A DNA stretch of 64,000 nt, from the NCBI GenBank assembly GCA_004299705.1, contig SCQS01000067.1, positions 1 to 64,000 on the forward strand, in the 5' to 3' direction. How positions within the stretch are numbered: the first letter of the stretch is position 1; each line of letters starts with the position of its first letter. The notes under the pieces were generated by a model. That model was not told the origin of the DNA, made no database searches, and was given only the letters and a program-made list of their open reading frames with translations. Positions 9,901 to 16,214 of this stretch are shown here, piece by piece. The stretch comes from Rhodanobacteraceae bacterium (GTDB lineage Bacteria; Pseudomonadota; Gammaproteobacteria; Xanthomonadales; Rhodanobacteraceae). Made by a program: the position numbers and the translations under genes.

Positions 9901-10869
9901 ATGAACGCGTTCGCCAACCCCACCCTCGAAGACATTCGCGCCGCCGCCGCGCGCATCGCCGCGCACGCGCGCGTGACGCCGGTGCTGCGTTCGCCTGAAT
10001 TGGACGTACTGGCCAGCGCCGGGCTGCATTTCAAGTGCGAGCATCTGCAACGCGGCGGCGCCTTCAAATTCCGTGGCGCCTGCAATGCGGTGTGGTCGCT
10101 GTCGGATGACGAGGCCGGGCGCGGCGTGGTGACGCATTCCTCCGGCAACCATGGCGCGGCGCTGGCGCTGGCGGCGAAAACGCGCGGGATTCCCGCGCAC
10201 ATCGTGGTGCCCGAAGGCGCGGTGGCGGCCAAGCTGGCCAACATCGAGCGCGCGGGAGGCATCATCCATCGTTGTGCGCCCACGCAGGCCGCGCGCGAGG
10301 AAACCTGCGCCAAGGTGCAACGTGAAACCGGCGCGGCGCTGGTACATCCCTACGCCGACGCGCGCGTGATCGCGGGGCAGGGCACGATCGTCCTGGAACT
10401 TCTGCAGCAGGCTCCCGATCTCGATGCGGTGATCGTGCCGATCGGTGGTGGTGGCCTCGCGTCCGGTTGCGCGATCGCACTTGCCGCGCTGGCGCCGCGC
10501 ACGCGCCTGATCGGTGCCGAACCCGTGGGGGCCGCCGATGCGTTTCAGTCGCTGCAACGCGGCGAACGCGTCACCGATGTCGTGCCGCACACGATTTGCG
10601 ATGGGTTGCGCGCGACCATCGGCGTGCCTGATTACGAATTGCTGAAATCGCATCGTGTCGAAATCATCACCGTGGACGACGCCGCCACGCTGGCCGCGAT
10701 GCGACTGTTGTGGGCGGAACTGAAGCAGACGATCGAACCCTCGTCTTCGGTCGTGCTGGCCGCATTGCTCGCGCAGCGCGAACGCTTCGCCGGGAAGCGC
10801 ATCGGCCTGGTGCTGTCGGGCGGCAACGTCGATCTCGACGCGATTCCGTTCCGCGCGGCCTCTGGTTGA
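9901..10869 (+). CDS. PLP-dependent threonine/serine dehydratase, short form
   Basis: A 322-residue fold-type II PLP enzyme. The lysine that binds PLP is in GAFKFRGACNA (Lys56), the substrate loop is SSGNHGAA, and the Gly-rich phosphate loop is PIGGGGLASG. The family deaminates threonine to 2-oxobutanoate (first step to isoleucine) or serine to pyruvate; close relatives are serine racemases or hydroxyaspartate ammonia-lyases. The C-terminal ACT-like regulatory domain of biosynthetic IlvA is absent. The ATG at 9901 follows AAGGA; a GTG at 9877 would add eight residues. The stop lies inside the -35 box of the thr promoter, so the two units abut. Placement next to thr and ilv genes favours a biosynthetic role, but the choice between functions is not settled. 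Confidence 0.85.
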   Translation: MNAFANPTLEDIRAAAARIAAHARVTPVLRSPELDVLASAGLHFKCEHLQRGGAFKFRGACNAVWSLSDDEAGRGVVTHSSGNHGAALALAAKTRGIPAHIVVPEGAVAAKLANIERAGGIIHRCAPTQAAREETCAKVQRETGAALVHPYADARVIAGQGTIVLELLQQAPDLDAVIVPIGGGGLASGCAIALAALAPRTRLIGAEPVGAADAFQSLQRGERVTDVVPHTICDGLRATIGVPDYELLKSHRVEIITVDDAATLAAMRLLWAELKQTIEPSSSVVLAALLAQRERFAGKRIGLVLSGGNVDLDAIPFRAASG

Positions 10870-10894
10870 CAATCACGCGTCACGCGTCTTATCT
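10866..10894 (+). promoter_or_regulatory. Promoter of the threonine operon
   Basis: TTGACA (10866-10871), a 17-base spacer and TTATCT (10889-10894) give a near-consensus sigma-70 promoter. Transcription should begin about 10901-10903, at or within two bases of the leader ATG at 10903. The -35 box overlaps the stop codon of the preceding dehydratase gene. Confidence 0.8.
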
Positions 10895-10902
10895 TCCGCG
10901 CA

Positions 10903-11058
10903 ATGCCGTTCGCAATCGAACCAGCACGCACGCACCACGCTCCGGGCTTTGCCGGATGCGCGCGGCTGTCCGCGGCCGGCATGGTTGCCAACACCACCGC
11001 CACGACTATTACCACCACGACCACGACCGGCCGCGGGTGGGGATTCGTGCGCAAGTAA
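10903..11058 (+). CDS. thrL: Threonine operon leader peptide (attenuation), probably leaderless
   Basis: A 51-codon frame from ATG 10903 to TAA at 11056-11058. Between 10993 and 11028 it holds ten Thr codons and one Ile codon in twelve, the mark of a thr leader as in the E. coli thrL-thrABC system. The last residues are GRGWGFVRK. The ATG at 10903 is 8 bases after the -10 box, so the mRNA would begin almost at the start codon. An in-frame internal ATG at 10981 would give the 25-residue Thr-rich core, but it has no recognisable ribosome binding site. The leader should sense charged tRNA-Thr and tune the homoserine dehydrogenase-thrB-thrC genes 90 bases downstream. Confidence 0.8.
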   Translation: MPFAIEPARTHHAPGFAGCARLSAAGMVANTTATTITTTTTTGRGWGFVRK

Positions 11059-11142
11059 CCCTTGCAAGCAACGGTCCCGCCCTCGACGAGGCGGGCCGGT
11101 GCGATCCGACACTGCCGAACGGGACGGGGCCTCCACAGGAGG
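11026..11142 (+). promoter_or_regulatory. RNA structures between the thr leader and its first gene
   Basis: Several competing helices are visible. The end of the Thr run, ACCGGCC (11026-11032), is complementary to GGCCGGT (11094-11100). CCCGCC (11076-11081) pairs with GGCGGG (11090-11095) in a GC hairpin without a T run. The ribosome binding site of the next gene lies in its own hairpin, CCTCC-ACA-GGAGG (11130-11142), and its CCTC part can also pair with GAGGC at 11088-11092. This suggests that control may act on translation initiation rather than on termination. The polarity of the switch is inferred, not shown. Confidence 0.55.
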
Positions 11143-11148
11143 TTCACC

Positions 11149-12306
11149 GTGAACATCGTCGCTGCGCCCATCGCCGAATCCCCGTTCGCGCCAGCCGTCG
11201 CCTGGATGCCCCCCGCGCGAACCCCGCGCCGACGCGAGTTGACGATCGGCGTGATCGGCCCCGGCCGGGTCGGCGGCGCGCTGCTTGAACAGCTTCGCGC
11301 CGCGCAGCCGCGACTGGAACGCGCGATGGGCCTGGTGTTGCGCCTGCGCGGCATCGTGGCGAGCCGACAGATGTGGCTGGACTCGGATGACCCCGAACTC
11401 AACGCCCGCCAGGACGGTGCGCAAACCTGGCGGCCCAACGACCTCGACGGATTTGCCGCCCACGTGCGCTGCGATAACGCGCGGCACGCCTTGCTGGTGG
11501 ATTGCAGTGCCAGCGAGGAAGTGGCCTCGCGTTATCCCGGTTGGCTGGCGGCGGGCATCCACGTGGTCACGCCCAACAAGTTGGCGGGCAGTGGGCCGTT
11601 GGCGCGTTGGCAGGCGATCCACGCGGCCTGCGGCGGCGGCAACGCGCGCTTCCGGCAGGAGGCGACGGTGTGCGCCGGGTTGCCGGTGCTGCAGACCCTG
11701 CGCGACCTGCTCGACACCGGCGATGAATTGATCGACATCGAAGGCATGTTCTCGGGCACGCTGGCCTGGTTGTGCAACCGCCACGATGGTCGGCAACCGT
11801 TCTCTGCGTTGCTGCGCGAGGCGCTTGCCTTGGGCTACACCGAGCCCGACCCGCGCGCGGACTTGTCCGGCACAGACGTGGCGCGCAAGCTGGTGATCCT
11901 GGCACGCGAGGCCGGCCTCGCGTTGTCGCTGGAGGACGTGCTGGTGGAAAGCCTGGTGCCGCCCACGCTGTCCGAGTTGCCGCTGGAGGCTTGCATGGAA
12001 CGCCTGCACGAGCTCGATGCGCCGTTGGCCGCGAAACTCGCCGAAGCCCGCGCTGGCGGCGGCGTGTTGCGACATGTCGGGCGGCTCGACCGCGACGGTC
12101 GCACCAGCGTGCGGCTCAAGGTGCTGCCGCCCGGACATGCCTTTGCCCACACGCGGCTCACCGACAACGTGGTGCAATTCCACACCGCGCGCTATCGCGA
12201 CAACCCGTTGCAGGTGCAAGGTCCGGGCGCGGGGCCGGCGGTGACGGCGGCCGGCGTGTTTGCCGATCTGTTGCGCATCGCCGAAGCGCTGGAGGCACGG
12301 CCATGA
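11149..12306 (+). CDS. Homoserine dehydrogenase, ThrA-type, without aspartokinase domain
   Basis: A 385-residue NAD(P)-dependent enzyme reducing aspartate semialdehyde to homoserine. The nucleotide-binding motif is [16 protein letters not shown] (about 27-42). Catalytic-domain motifs follow: [36 protein letters not shown] and [12 protein letters not shown]; the C-terminus has [12 protein letters not shown] and [13 protein letters not shown]. The sequence resembles the C-terminal half of bifunctional ThrA, but the N-terminal aspartokinase and its ACT repeats are missing, so aspartokinase must be encoded elsewhere. The GTG start at 11149 follows a perfect AGGAGG 6 bases upstream. The stop overlaps thrB as ATGA. 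The first 25 residues are a Pro/Ala-rich tail unlike the family. Confidence 0.93.
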
Positions 12307-13283
12307 GCGCGGACATCCCGGCGCCCATCGGTGCGGCCACGCGGCCGCGTATGGCGCAGGCTTTCGCGTCCGCCAGCGTTGGCAACGTGGCGGTGGGGTT
12401 CGACATCCTTGGACACAGCGTGGGCGGTGCCGGCGATCGAGCCGAGGTGCGCGTGATCGACGCGCCGGAAGTGCGCATCGCCGCGATCGACGGCGTGGTT
12501 ACAGATTTGCCGCACGATCCTGTGCGCAACACCGCGGGTGTCGCGTTGCTGGCATTGCGGCGGGTGCTGGATTTGCGCCACGGCTTCGAACTGGTCCTGC
12601 ACAAGGGCATCGCGTTGGGTTCCGGCATGGGCGGTTCGGCGGCGTCCTGTGTCGCCGCGTTGGTGGCGGCCAACGCGCTGCTGCATAAACCGCTGCCGCG
12701 CGAGGCGCTGTATCGCTTCGCACTGGACGGCGAGGCGGTGGCCAGCGGCAGCCGGCACGGTGACAACCTCGGGCCGATGCTGCTGGGCGGCCTAGTGCTG
12801 GCCACGCACGATCGCCTGCTGCGCATTCCGGTGCCCGCTGCGTGGCATTGCGCGCTGGTGCATCCGCACTGCGTACTGGAAACCCGCAAGGCGCGCGCCG
12901 CGTTGGCGGGTGATTACGCGCTGGACACGTTTGTCGAGCAAAGCGCCAATCTCGCAATGGTGCTGGCCGGTTGCTTTCGCGGTGACACCGCGCTGGTGCG
13001 CGCGGGCCTGCGCGACGTGCTGGTGGAACCACGCCGCGCACGGCTGGTGCCGAATTTCGCGCGCGTGCAACAGGCCGCGCTGGATCACCATGCGCTGGGC
13101 GCCAGCATTTCCGGCGGCGGCCCCAGCGTGTTCGGTTGGTACGAGCGGCGCGAGGATGCCGAAGCTGCGGCTCTCGCGATGCGCACGGCGTTCGCCGACG
13201 CGGGCCTGGACAGCGACGCCCTGGTTGCGCCGGTCGATGGGCCTGCTGCGAAGTTGATCGATACGAACGGAAGCACGACATGA
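12303..13283 (+). CDS. thrB: Homoserine kinase
   Basis: A 326-residue GHMP-family kinase that phosphorylates homoserine with ATP. The N-terminus has [14 protein letters not shown] and the ATP loop is [10 protein letters not shown] (106-115). The C-terminal GHMP motif is [12 protein letters not shown]. Length fits the family (about 310-330). Its ATG overlaps the homoserine dehydrogenase stop as ATGA and its own stop overlaps thrC the same way, so the three genes are translationally coupled in pathway order. Confidence 0.96.
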
Positions 13284-14614
13284 AGACGACGCGTTACCGC
13301 AGCACCCGTGGCCGCAGTCCGATGGTCGGCATTGGCGCAGCCATCGCGGCCGGACTCGCGCCGGACGGCGGCCTGTACGTGCCGGAACGGTTGCCGCGCC
13401 TCGACGTCGCCGTGTTCGATCCGAACGGCACGCTGACCGACACCGCGACGACGCTGCTGGCGCCGTTCTTCGCGGGCGATCCACTGGCCGACGCATTGCC
13501 TGCGATCTGCGCCGAGGCGCTGACCTTCGATACGCCGTTGCGTCCGCTCGCGGGCGATCCGCATGGACATGTGCTGGAACTGTTCCACGGCCCGACCGCC
13601 GCGTTCAAGGACGCGGGCGCGCGTTTCCTGGCTGCCTGCCTACGGCGTTTGCCACGCAGCGATGCACGCCCGCTCACCATCCTGGTCGCGACCTCGGGCG
13701 ACACCGGCGCGGCGGTGGGCGCGGCCTTCCATGGTCAACCGGGCGTGCGCGTGGTGATCCTGTATCCGGATGGCCGGGTTTCGCCGCGCCAGGCGCACCA
13801 GCTCGGCTGTTTCGGCGGCAATGTGCGGGCGCTGCGCGTGTCCGGCCGCTTCGACGATTGCCAACGCATGGTCAAGGCGGCCTTGAACGATGTCGAACTG
13901 CAGCGCGAGGTGCCGCTGAGTTCGGCCAACAGCATCAGCCTCGGCCGCCTGCTGCCGCAAATGAGCTACTACGCGCATGCCGCGCTGGCGTGGTGGCGCG
14001 CGCAGGCTGTGCCACTCAACTTCATCGTGCCCACCGGCAACCTCGGCAACGCGTTGGCTTGCCTGTGGGTGCGTGAAACAGGATTGCCCGTCGGCGAGAT
14101 ACGGCTGGCCTGCAACGCCAATGCCACCCTGTCCGATTTTTTTTCAGGCGACGACTATCGCCCGCGTGCCGCGGTGGCCACGCTCGCCAACGCGATGGAC
14201 GTGGGCGCGCCCAGTAATTTCGAACGCCTGCGCTGGACTTTCGGCGACGACATCTCCGTGCGTCGAACGGTGCGTGCGGAATGCGTGGACGATGCGGCCA
14301 TCCGCGCAACCATCCGCCGGCATGCGCACGAACATGGCGAAGTCCTGTGCCCGCACACGGCCTGCGCGGCGCATGTCCTCGACGGATTGCGTGCGGAAGG
14401 CGATCGCGCCGAATGTGCGGTGGTCGCCACCGCGCACCCGGCCAAGTTCGAGGGCGTGGTCGAACCGTTGGCAGGTCGCCCGGTGGCGGTGCCCTCCGCG
14501 CTGGCGGTGATGCTGCAGCGGCCAAGCCACGCCGAGCCGCTGGCGGCGGAAGATGCGGCCTTGAAACAGTGGCTGCGCCAGCATGCCCACGCTGGCGAGG
14601 CTTTCGTGGCTTGA
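13280..14614 (+). CDS. thrC: Threonine synthase
   Basis: A 444-residue PLP enzyme that turns phosphohomoserine into threonine. The PLP lysine is in [15 protein letters not shown] (Lys110). Other family features are the start with [19 protein letters not shown], and [14 protein letters not shown]. Length and motifs match the bacterial group also found in E. coli. Its ATG overlaps the thrB stop. No convincing terminator follows: there is only a 6-base-pair hairpin around the stop, so some read-through into the leu region is possible. Confidence 0.96.
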
Positions 14615-14682
14615 AAGCGGGTGGACGTCTGGATGGCCAAACCGCCAATCCGCACTAAGAAAAAATCATCATAAGAAAACAG

Positions 14683-14711
14683 TTGACAGGCTGGCTCGTT
14701 CTGCTTTACGT
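14683..14711 (+). promoter_or_regulatory. Promoter of the leu/ilv operon
   Basis: TTGACA (14683-14688), a 17-base spacer and TTACGT (14706-14711; TTTACG with 16 bases is also possible). An A-rich tract with AAGAAAAAATCATCATAAG just upstream looks like an UP element. The start of transcription is expected at about 14718-14719, on the leader ATG itself. Confidence 0.8.
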
Positions 14712-14718
14712 TCGTTCC

Positions 14719-14856
14719 ATGCCGCAGCGCAACATCCAAACCAGCATCGCCGCTCCGAACCGTCCCGCGACGGTCGATGGCCTGCTGCTTGGCGGCACGC
14801 TCCTGCTTGCCCTCATTACCCTCGTACTCCTTATTACCAACGGAGGTGCGGGCTGA
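14719..14856 (+). CDS. leuL: Leucine/isoleucine/valine leader peptide (attenuation), probably leaderless
   Basis: A 45-residue frame. Residues 22-37 contain ten Leu codons mixed with Ile, Val and Thr (LLLGGTLLLALITLVLLIT), as expected for a leader that senses branched-chain aminoacyl-tRNAs. The ATG lies 7 bases after the -10 box and no ribosome binding site is present, so translation should start on a leaderless mRNA. The last codons (14845-14852, GGTGCGGG) are the antiterminator partner of the terminator downstream, so a ribosome at the stop would mask them, while a ribosome stalled at the Leu codons would not. Peptides of this kind are usually left out of annotations. Confidence 0.85.
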   Translation: MPQRNIQTSIAAPNRPATVDGLLLGGTLLLALITLVLLITNGGAG

Positions 14857-14903
14857 GGGCATGTGTCCAGGTAGCTAGAAAACGAACCTGAAAACACCCG
14901 AAG

Positions 14904-14935
14904 AACCCCGCACCAGCAATGGCGCGGGGTTTTTT
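14904..14935 (+). terminator. Attenuator terminator of the leu/ilv operon
   Basis: Stem AACCCCGC/GCGGGGTT (14904-14911 with 14924-14931) followed by a run of six T (14930-14935). Its left arm overlaps CCCGCACC (14907-14914), which is perfectly complementary to GGTGCGGG at the end of the leader ORF (14845-14852). The two pairings exclude each other, giving a classical terminator/antiterminator switch. A further hairpin CAGGT/ACCTG lies between them. leuA starts 38 bases downstream. Confidence 0.88.
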
Positions 14936-14972
14936 GTTGCCCAAGGACCGGCTTCCCACCACGGAGCCAACC

Positions 14973-16210
<1,238 letters not shown>

Positions 16211-16214
<4 letters not shown>

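Follow-up and report, generated by a model that had tools for sequence, protein, structure and literature searches.

How is a leader peptide translated when its start codon lies directly behind the promoter and no Shine–Dalgarno sequence (SD) precedes it? This question is raised by two leader open reading frames (ORFs), one in front of the thr genes and the other in front of the leu/ilv operon, in the stretch of Rhodanobacteraceae DNA analyzed here (contig SCQS01000067.1, positions 1 to 64,000; the window, 64,000 nucleotides (nt) in length). With a probability of roughly 0.8, we read both elements as ribosome-mediated attenuators whose leader peptide is made from a leaderless messenger RNA (mRNA) and whose leader ORF contains a hairpin that probably pauses RNA polymerase (RNAP). 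The promoters and leaders are as follows:

10866–10895, + strand: thr promoter (TTGACA 10866–10871, spacer 18, TATCTT 10890–10895), kept in relatives
14683–14712, + strand: leu promoter (TTGACA 14683–14688, spacer 18, TACGTT 14707–14712), kept in relatives
10903–11058, + strand: thr leader ORF, 51 amino acids (aa), predicted leaderless, with Thr/Ile control codons at 10993–11028 (sequence, relatives)
14719–14856, + strand: leu/ilv leader ORF, 45 aa, predicted leaderless, with the main Leu/Ile/Val run at 14800–14835 (sequence, relatives)

The first-pass annotation had placed the ATGs 8 (thr) and 7 (leu) nt past the −10 box, with no ribosome binding site at either leader and leader lengths of 51 and 45 residues. 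When re-counted, both spacings proved correct: ATG 10903 lies 8 nt from TTATCT (10889–10894) and 7 nt from the overlapping TATCTT, and ATG 14719 lies 7 nt from TTACGT (14706–14711) and 6 nt from TACGTT. The lengths were likewise confirmed, and no SD was found at the thr or the leu leader. Control codons begin at residue 31 in the thr leader and at residues 22/28 in the leu leader. In a sigma-70 scan of 10800–11200 the thr promoter was the only match; the leu −10 is weaker and fell below the cut-off of the scan, its TAnnnT being nonetheless kept in relatives. The −35 hexamer of the thr promoter (10866–10871) overlaps the stop codon of ilvA (TGA 10867–10869).

Within the window, the pattern TTGACN17-19TANNNTN5-8ATG matched twice, exactly at the two leaders, where 0.05 matches were expected and none of 100 shuffles reached two. 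Across the genome (3.6 megabases) it matched nine times, compared to one match for the reversed pattern. Chance is excluded as the source of the promoter–ATG pattern.

The ORFs behind the other matches in the genome resemble toxins/antitoxins, marR (one ORF) and relA/spoT (one ORF), all named by eye from their translations. Leaderless-type spacing was seen at G000:C30:12055-12092 (L068), G000:C37:92707-92744 (L069), G000:C29:8542-8578 (L067), G000:C11:15761-15799 (L065) and G000:C20:35604-35641 (L066); the ORFs behind these five were, by eye, relA/spoT-like, HigB-like, BrnT-like, a Phd-like antitoxin and marR-like. A genome-wide scan for His and Phe codon runs revealed no additional leader.

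Relatives of thrA and leuA were present in nearly all of 100 genomes, and a set of 103 leaders from the Lysobacterales/Xanthomonadales was assembled (41 thr and 46 leu loci, plus 12 ilv and 4 thr loci from further genomes and families within the order). The distance from the TTGAC hexamer to the ATG was 26–32 nt in 100 of the 103 leaders (29–32 nt in 99 and 26 nt in one). A leu/ilv leader locked to its promoter in this way occurred in nine of 12 sampled families, and a thr leader was found in two. The start codon was ATG in every leader examined, thrA itself starting with GTG in 27 of 41 loci, and no leader had a clear SD upstream, the longest match to AAGGAGGT being 5 nt in one locus and at most 4 nt elsewhere. 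In the 41 thr loci, leader and thrA were separated by a variable 151–254 nt. Leaders measured 41–57 residues in most loci, and their reading frame was kept despite changes in length. Both leaders are present in the same arrangement in Rhodanobacter sp. MP7CTX1 and Lysobacterales bacterium 66-474. Three leaders were exceptional: two in family f12 with an untranslated region (UTR) of about 20 nt, and one with a degenerate −35 and an unchanged −10-to-ATG spacing. A C at position −1 was also considered as an initiator signature but discarded, since the starts of thrA have it too.

Several loci encoding a bifunctional aspartokinase-homoserine dehydrogenase carried shorter thr leaders of 22–27 residues, still promoter-locked, with a hairpin over the control codons. 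Four of these (L093, L095, L100 and L101) have leaders of 22–24 aa, and their −10 boxes include TCCACT and TCAACT.

Transcription from sigma-70 promoters starts about 6–8 nt past the −10 box, so that the start predicted here is the leader ATG itself. Such tight coupling of promoter and ATG in many lineages, combined with the exclusive use of ATG and the lack of an SD, is hard to explain other than by leaderless messages, and translation of the leaders from a leaderless message is very likely on these sequence grounds. In line with this, the proposal of the first-pass annotation that transcription starts at the ATG drew support from the 100 promoter-locked ATGs, the invariable ATG, the missing SD and the weak structure of the first 22 nt described below; the comparison of relatives that it had called for brought to light no clear binding site before the leader ATGs. 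RNAP would start at the first base of the leader AUG or 1–2 bases from it, and the bare 5′ AUG with the unstructured first ~20 nt would be where ribosomes load; the exact 5′ end and loading by 70S ribosomes or by subunits are inferred.

14719–14738, + strand: unstructured 5′ landing pad of the leu leader, consensus ATGnCGCAGCGCAACAGCCA (conservation, folding)

The sequence of the leu landing pad is nearly invariant among relatives. The first 22 nt of the leaders had a mean folding energy of −1.4 kcal/mol, whereas coding windows of equal length from these loci averaged −4.7 kcal/mol (p ~1e-14).

Alternatively, transcripts might begin further upstream, by readthrough from ilvA or thrC or from another promoter, the ATG being read in an SD-independent manner on a leadered message. 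Readthrough is conceivable at the thr leader, as ilvA ends directly before its promoter, and the two f12 loci with a ~20-nt UTR also lack an SD. However, one would expect the UTR of a leadered message to vary in length or to retain an SD in some lineages, whereas the ATG is present in all leaders and fixed relative to the −35 in all except three, and the thr promoter is the sole sigma-70 match near the thr leader; we thus regard an upstream start as improbable. Even less credible is initiation of the thr leader at the in-frame ATG 10981 (residue 27), which would yield a 25-residue Thr-rich peptide resembling known short leaders: this internal ATG has no SD, and relatives do not keep it in the same position, whereas every locus has the 5′ ATG. 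It was therefore rejected as the start.

If the 5′ ATG is the site of entry, what is the long region between it and the control codons for? The first-pass annotation had described it as an ordinary N-terminal part of 20–25 residues. The leaders are indeed long, yet this part does not appear to be idle, as it encodes an RNA hairpin (from about +20 to +75):

10927–10974, + strand: thr in-ORF RNA hairpin (+25 to +72), candidate pausing/synchronizing element (covariation, weaker than leu)
14742–14787, + strand: leu in-ORF RNA hairpin (+24 to +69), candidate pausing/synchronizing element (covariation, stability)

The in-ORF hairpin is strongly supported in leu and less so in thr. With counts on the named structures, used in place of RNAalifold, the leu hairpin reached a covariation of 0.193, compared to 0.136 ± 0.012 after shuffling (0/500) and to at most 0.101 in slid controls; changes on both sides numbered 31 against 14.8. 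Its stability over dinucleotide shuffles was also elevated (mean z −1.94 vs. −0.13 in coding controls, p 7e-12). For the thr hairpin, covariation was 0.211 vs. 0.161 ± 0.017 after shuffling. The region before the control codons evolves at about equal rates at the three codon positions, and so little constraint on the peptide is visible. Further, since thr leaders of 22–27 residues are still promoter-locked, a long N-terminal part is not needed for leaderless initiation.

Our best reading is that the in-ORF hairpin may be an RNAP pause hairpin shifted to a place ahead of the control codons. According to the standard attenuation model, the ribosome releases the paused polymerase by melting a hairpin (PMC1183508); in these leaders, the hairpin (~+20 to +75) probably pauses RNAP until the loaded ribosome melts it. 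A rival account in which there is no pause signal comes close to an even chance: the hairpin might be a by-product of G+C-rich coding, or it might keep the 5′ end free, protect against ribonuclease or slow the ribosome. It draws on the mean folding energy of this region, which equals the value for ordinary coding windows of those loci, on the RNAalifold outcome given below, and on inspection by eye, by which no clear pause-site consensus was noticed past the hairpin. It is at odds with the excess stability of the leu hairpin and its covariation above all 500 shuffles and every slid control, with the presence of a thr hairpin at the same position, albeit with a weaker signal, and with codon positions that evolve alike, which fits a constraint on RNA rather than on peptide.

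How would stalling be read out downstream? At the leu/ilv leader, three elements are relevant:

14845–14852, + strand: antiterminator strand GGTGCGGG in the last leader codons, pairing with CCCGCACC at 14907–14914 (covariation)
14868–14890, + strand: small hairpin CAGGT...ACCTG between the leader stop and the terminator (sequence, folding)
14904–14935, + strand: intrinsic terminator CCCCGC...GCGGGG followed by U6 (sequence, covariation)

The terminator was paired in 98.9% of cells, with compensatory changes. Pairing between GGTGCGGG and CCCGCACC was retained in 94.8% of cells, with a covariation of 0.052 vs. 0.037 after shuffling and at most 0.023 in slid controls. CCCGCACC lies in the 5′ arm of the terminator; the two structures are mutually exclusive, and the leader-end pairing is a classical antiterminator. 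The leu/ilv leader combines a control-codon run, an intrinsic terminator with U-tract before the first gene and an exclusive antiterminator at the leader end. A ribosome reaching the stop codon would cover GGTGCGGG and allow the terminator to form, while one stalled at the Leu/Ile/Val codons would leave GGTGCGGG free to pair with CCCGCACC, and transcription would continue.

The thr element is organized differently:

11035–11041, + strand: segment L, GGGTGGG, near the leader end, pairing with CCCGCCC at 11076–11082 (covariation)
11072–11099, + strand: thr hairpin P:Q (CGGTCCCGCC...GGCGGGCCGG), with no U-tract behind it (sequence, alignment)
11130–11142, + strand: hairpin CCTCC-ACA-GGAGG over the thrA SD (conservation, folding)

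Here, too, a segment at the leader end alternates with a downstream hairpin: L:P pairing showed ten both-side-changed cells vs. 1.9 after shuffling (0/500). A U-tract after the G+C-rich hairpin was absent in 41 of 41 aligned loci, so that it does not qualify as an intrinsic terminator, and a terminator scan at this hairpin in the window found none. A stall at the Thr codons would free GGGTGGG to pair with CCCGCCC, thereby opening the U-tract-less hairpin. As to the output, translational control of thrA through the SD hairpin and Rho-dependent termination are both possible. That the element controls thrA translation, the switch setting the masking of the GGAGG SD by CCTCC without premature termination, is a possibility to which we give somewhat less than even odds. 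The missing U-tract and the conservation of the SD hairpin, with changes on both sides, speak for it; on the other hand, stalling lowered the computed cost of opening the SD in just 15 of the 41 loci, and Rho-dependent termination likewise needs no U-tract.

Several results weigh against the reading of both elements as leaderless attenuators with a pausing hairpin. In all these species, the 5′ ends are placed by promoter–ATG geometry only. The leu leaders L084 and L085 (family f12, genus g37) have lost the promoter–ATG lock, with TTGACA about 50 nt upstream and the ~20-nt UTR without SD mentioned above. The stability of the thr in-ORF hairpin exceeds chance only slightly (mean z −0.69, compared to −0.20 for coding DNA), and RNAalifold, run on the full alignments of the leader ORFs, returned no consensus structure for the hairpin of thr or of leu, probably because alignment rows were out of register. 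In equilibrium folding, a stall did not displace the leu terminator, which won in both states, and a scripted terminator metric failed on many loci; such folding being uninformative on terminator vs. antiterminator, covariation was used instead. Equally, it did not show that a stall opens the thr SD, in view of the 15 loci noted above. Well supported, by comparison, are the promoter-locked ATG, the lack of an SD, the sole use of ATG, the thr leader/hairpin switch, and the antiterminator, terminator and in-ORF hairpin of leu.

The gene order in the window is ilvA, thr leader ORF, homoserine dehydrogenase, homoserine kinase, threonine synthase, leu leader ORF and the leu/ilv operon, which begins with leuA. 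Gene identities were taken from Pfam:

11149–12306, + strand: thrA-type homoserine dehydrogenase, monofunctional, GTG start (PF00742)
12303–13283, + strand: thrB-type homoserine kinase (GHMP kinase; Pfam)
13280–14614, + strand: thrC, threonine synthase (Pfam)
14973–16214, + strand: leuA, 2-isopropylmalate synthase, first gene of the leu/ilv operon (Pfam, relatives)

One genome of the same family has what appears to be a tandem pair of homoserine dehydrogenase genes (G027:C2:240236-241309 and 241977-243050), about 0.7 kilobases apart and with identical match scores.

Attenuation is a timed race between RNAP and the first ribosome, and models hold that synchronization by a pause hairpin is essential for sensitive control (PMC1183508). 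If 5′-AUG loading does replace the SD in two operons across an order, and a hairpin sits within the coding region, these leaders would offer a natural comparison of how attenuator sensitivity depends on the initiation route. We tentatively outline, as a proposal that we would not yet favor, an order-wide design consisting of a leaderless leader mRNA, a 20-nt landing pad, an RNAP-pausing hairpin within the ORF before the control codons, and two outputs, namely a leu/ilv terminator and a U-tract-less, perhaps translational, thr element.

How do these elements compare with known systems? The gathering cut-offs of Rfam were not reached, either with Thr_leader RF00506 (22.9 and 18.4 bits, cut-off 55) or with Leu_leader RF00512 (17.2 bits, cut-off 50). 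In the open-access library searched, no earlier description for the Lysobacterales/Xanthomonadales came to light, subscription papers, including the survey of proteobacterial attenuators by Vitreschak et al. 2004, lying outside that search. As in the E. coli thr attenuator (thrL; RF00506), Thr/Ile control codons precede thrA, and the end of E. coli thrL, ...GGTGCGGGCTGA, is identical to the antiterminator segment at the end of the leu leader in the window. In contrast, thrL of E. coli K-12 is leadered, with its ATG 73 nt past the −35 (counted from the sequence), and encodes 21 aa, and the thr element described here differs from the E. coli attenuator in having no U-tract.

Closer parallels are found among leaderless attenuators. 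The trpL attenuator of Sinorhizobium meliloti (rnTrpL/peTrpL), with a mapped 5′ end (PMC7298713), also has a transcript that begins at the ATG of the leader ORF and is subject to transcription attenuation; it differs in its 14 residues, its Trp codons, its alphaproteobacterial host and its 5′ end, mapped there and predicted here. In Actinobacteria, leaderless or RBS-less (lacking a ribosome binding site) leaders comprise leuL, trpL, ilvL and thrL of S. lividans (PMC8079986) and, according to secondary accounts, the C. glutamicum ilvBNC leader (Morbach 2000, cited in PMC10272879 and PMC4046766) and mycobacterial poly-Cys ORFs (Canestrari 2020, cited in PMC9031893). As far as these accounts go, they share control codons on messages that start at the start codon or lack an RBS, and some of them, such as thrL of S. 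lividans, are also without a clear terminator U-tract (PMC8079986). They are mostly shorter in the examples compared (~12–29 aa) and belong to high-G+C Gram-positives, unlike the longer leaders with an in-ORF hairpin in Gammaproteobacteria. Since leaderless attenuators are already known from S. meliloti, Corynebacterium, Streptomyces and mycobacteria, the principle is the same and the lineage is new, its leaders having a conserved landing pad, an in-ORF hairpin and, for thr, an element without a U-tract. Leaderless attenuators, described earlier from alphaproteobacteria and actinobacteria, would thereby extend to the Gammaproteobacteria.

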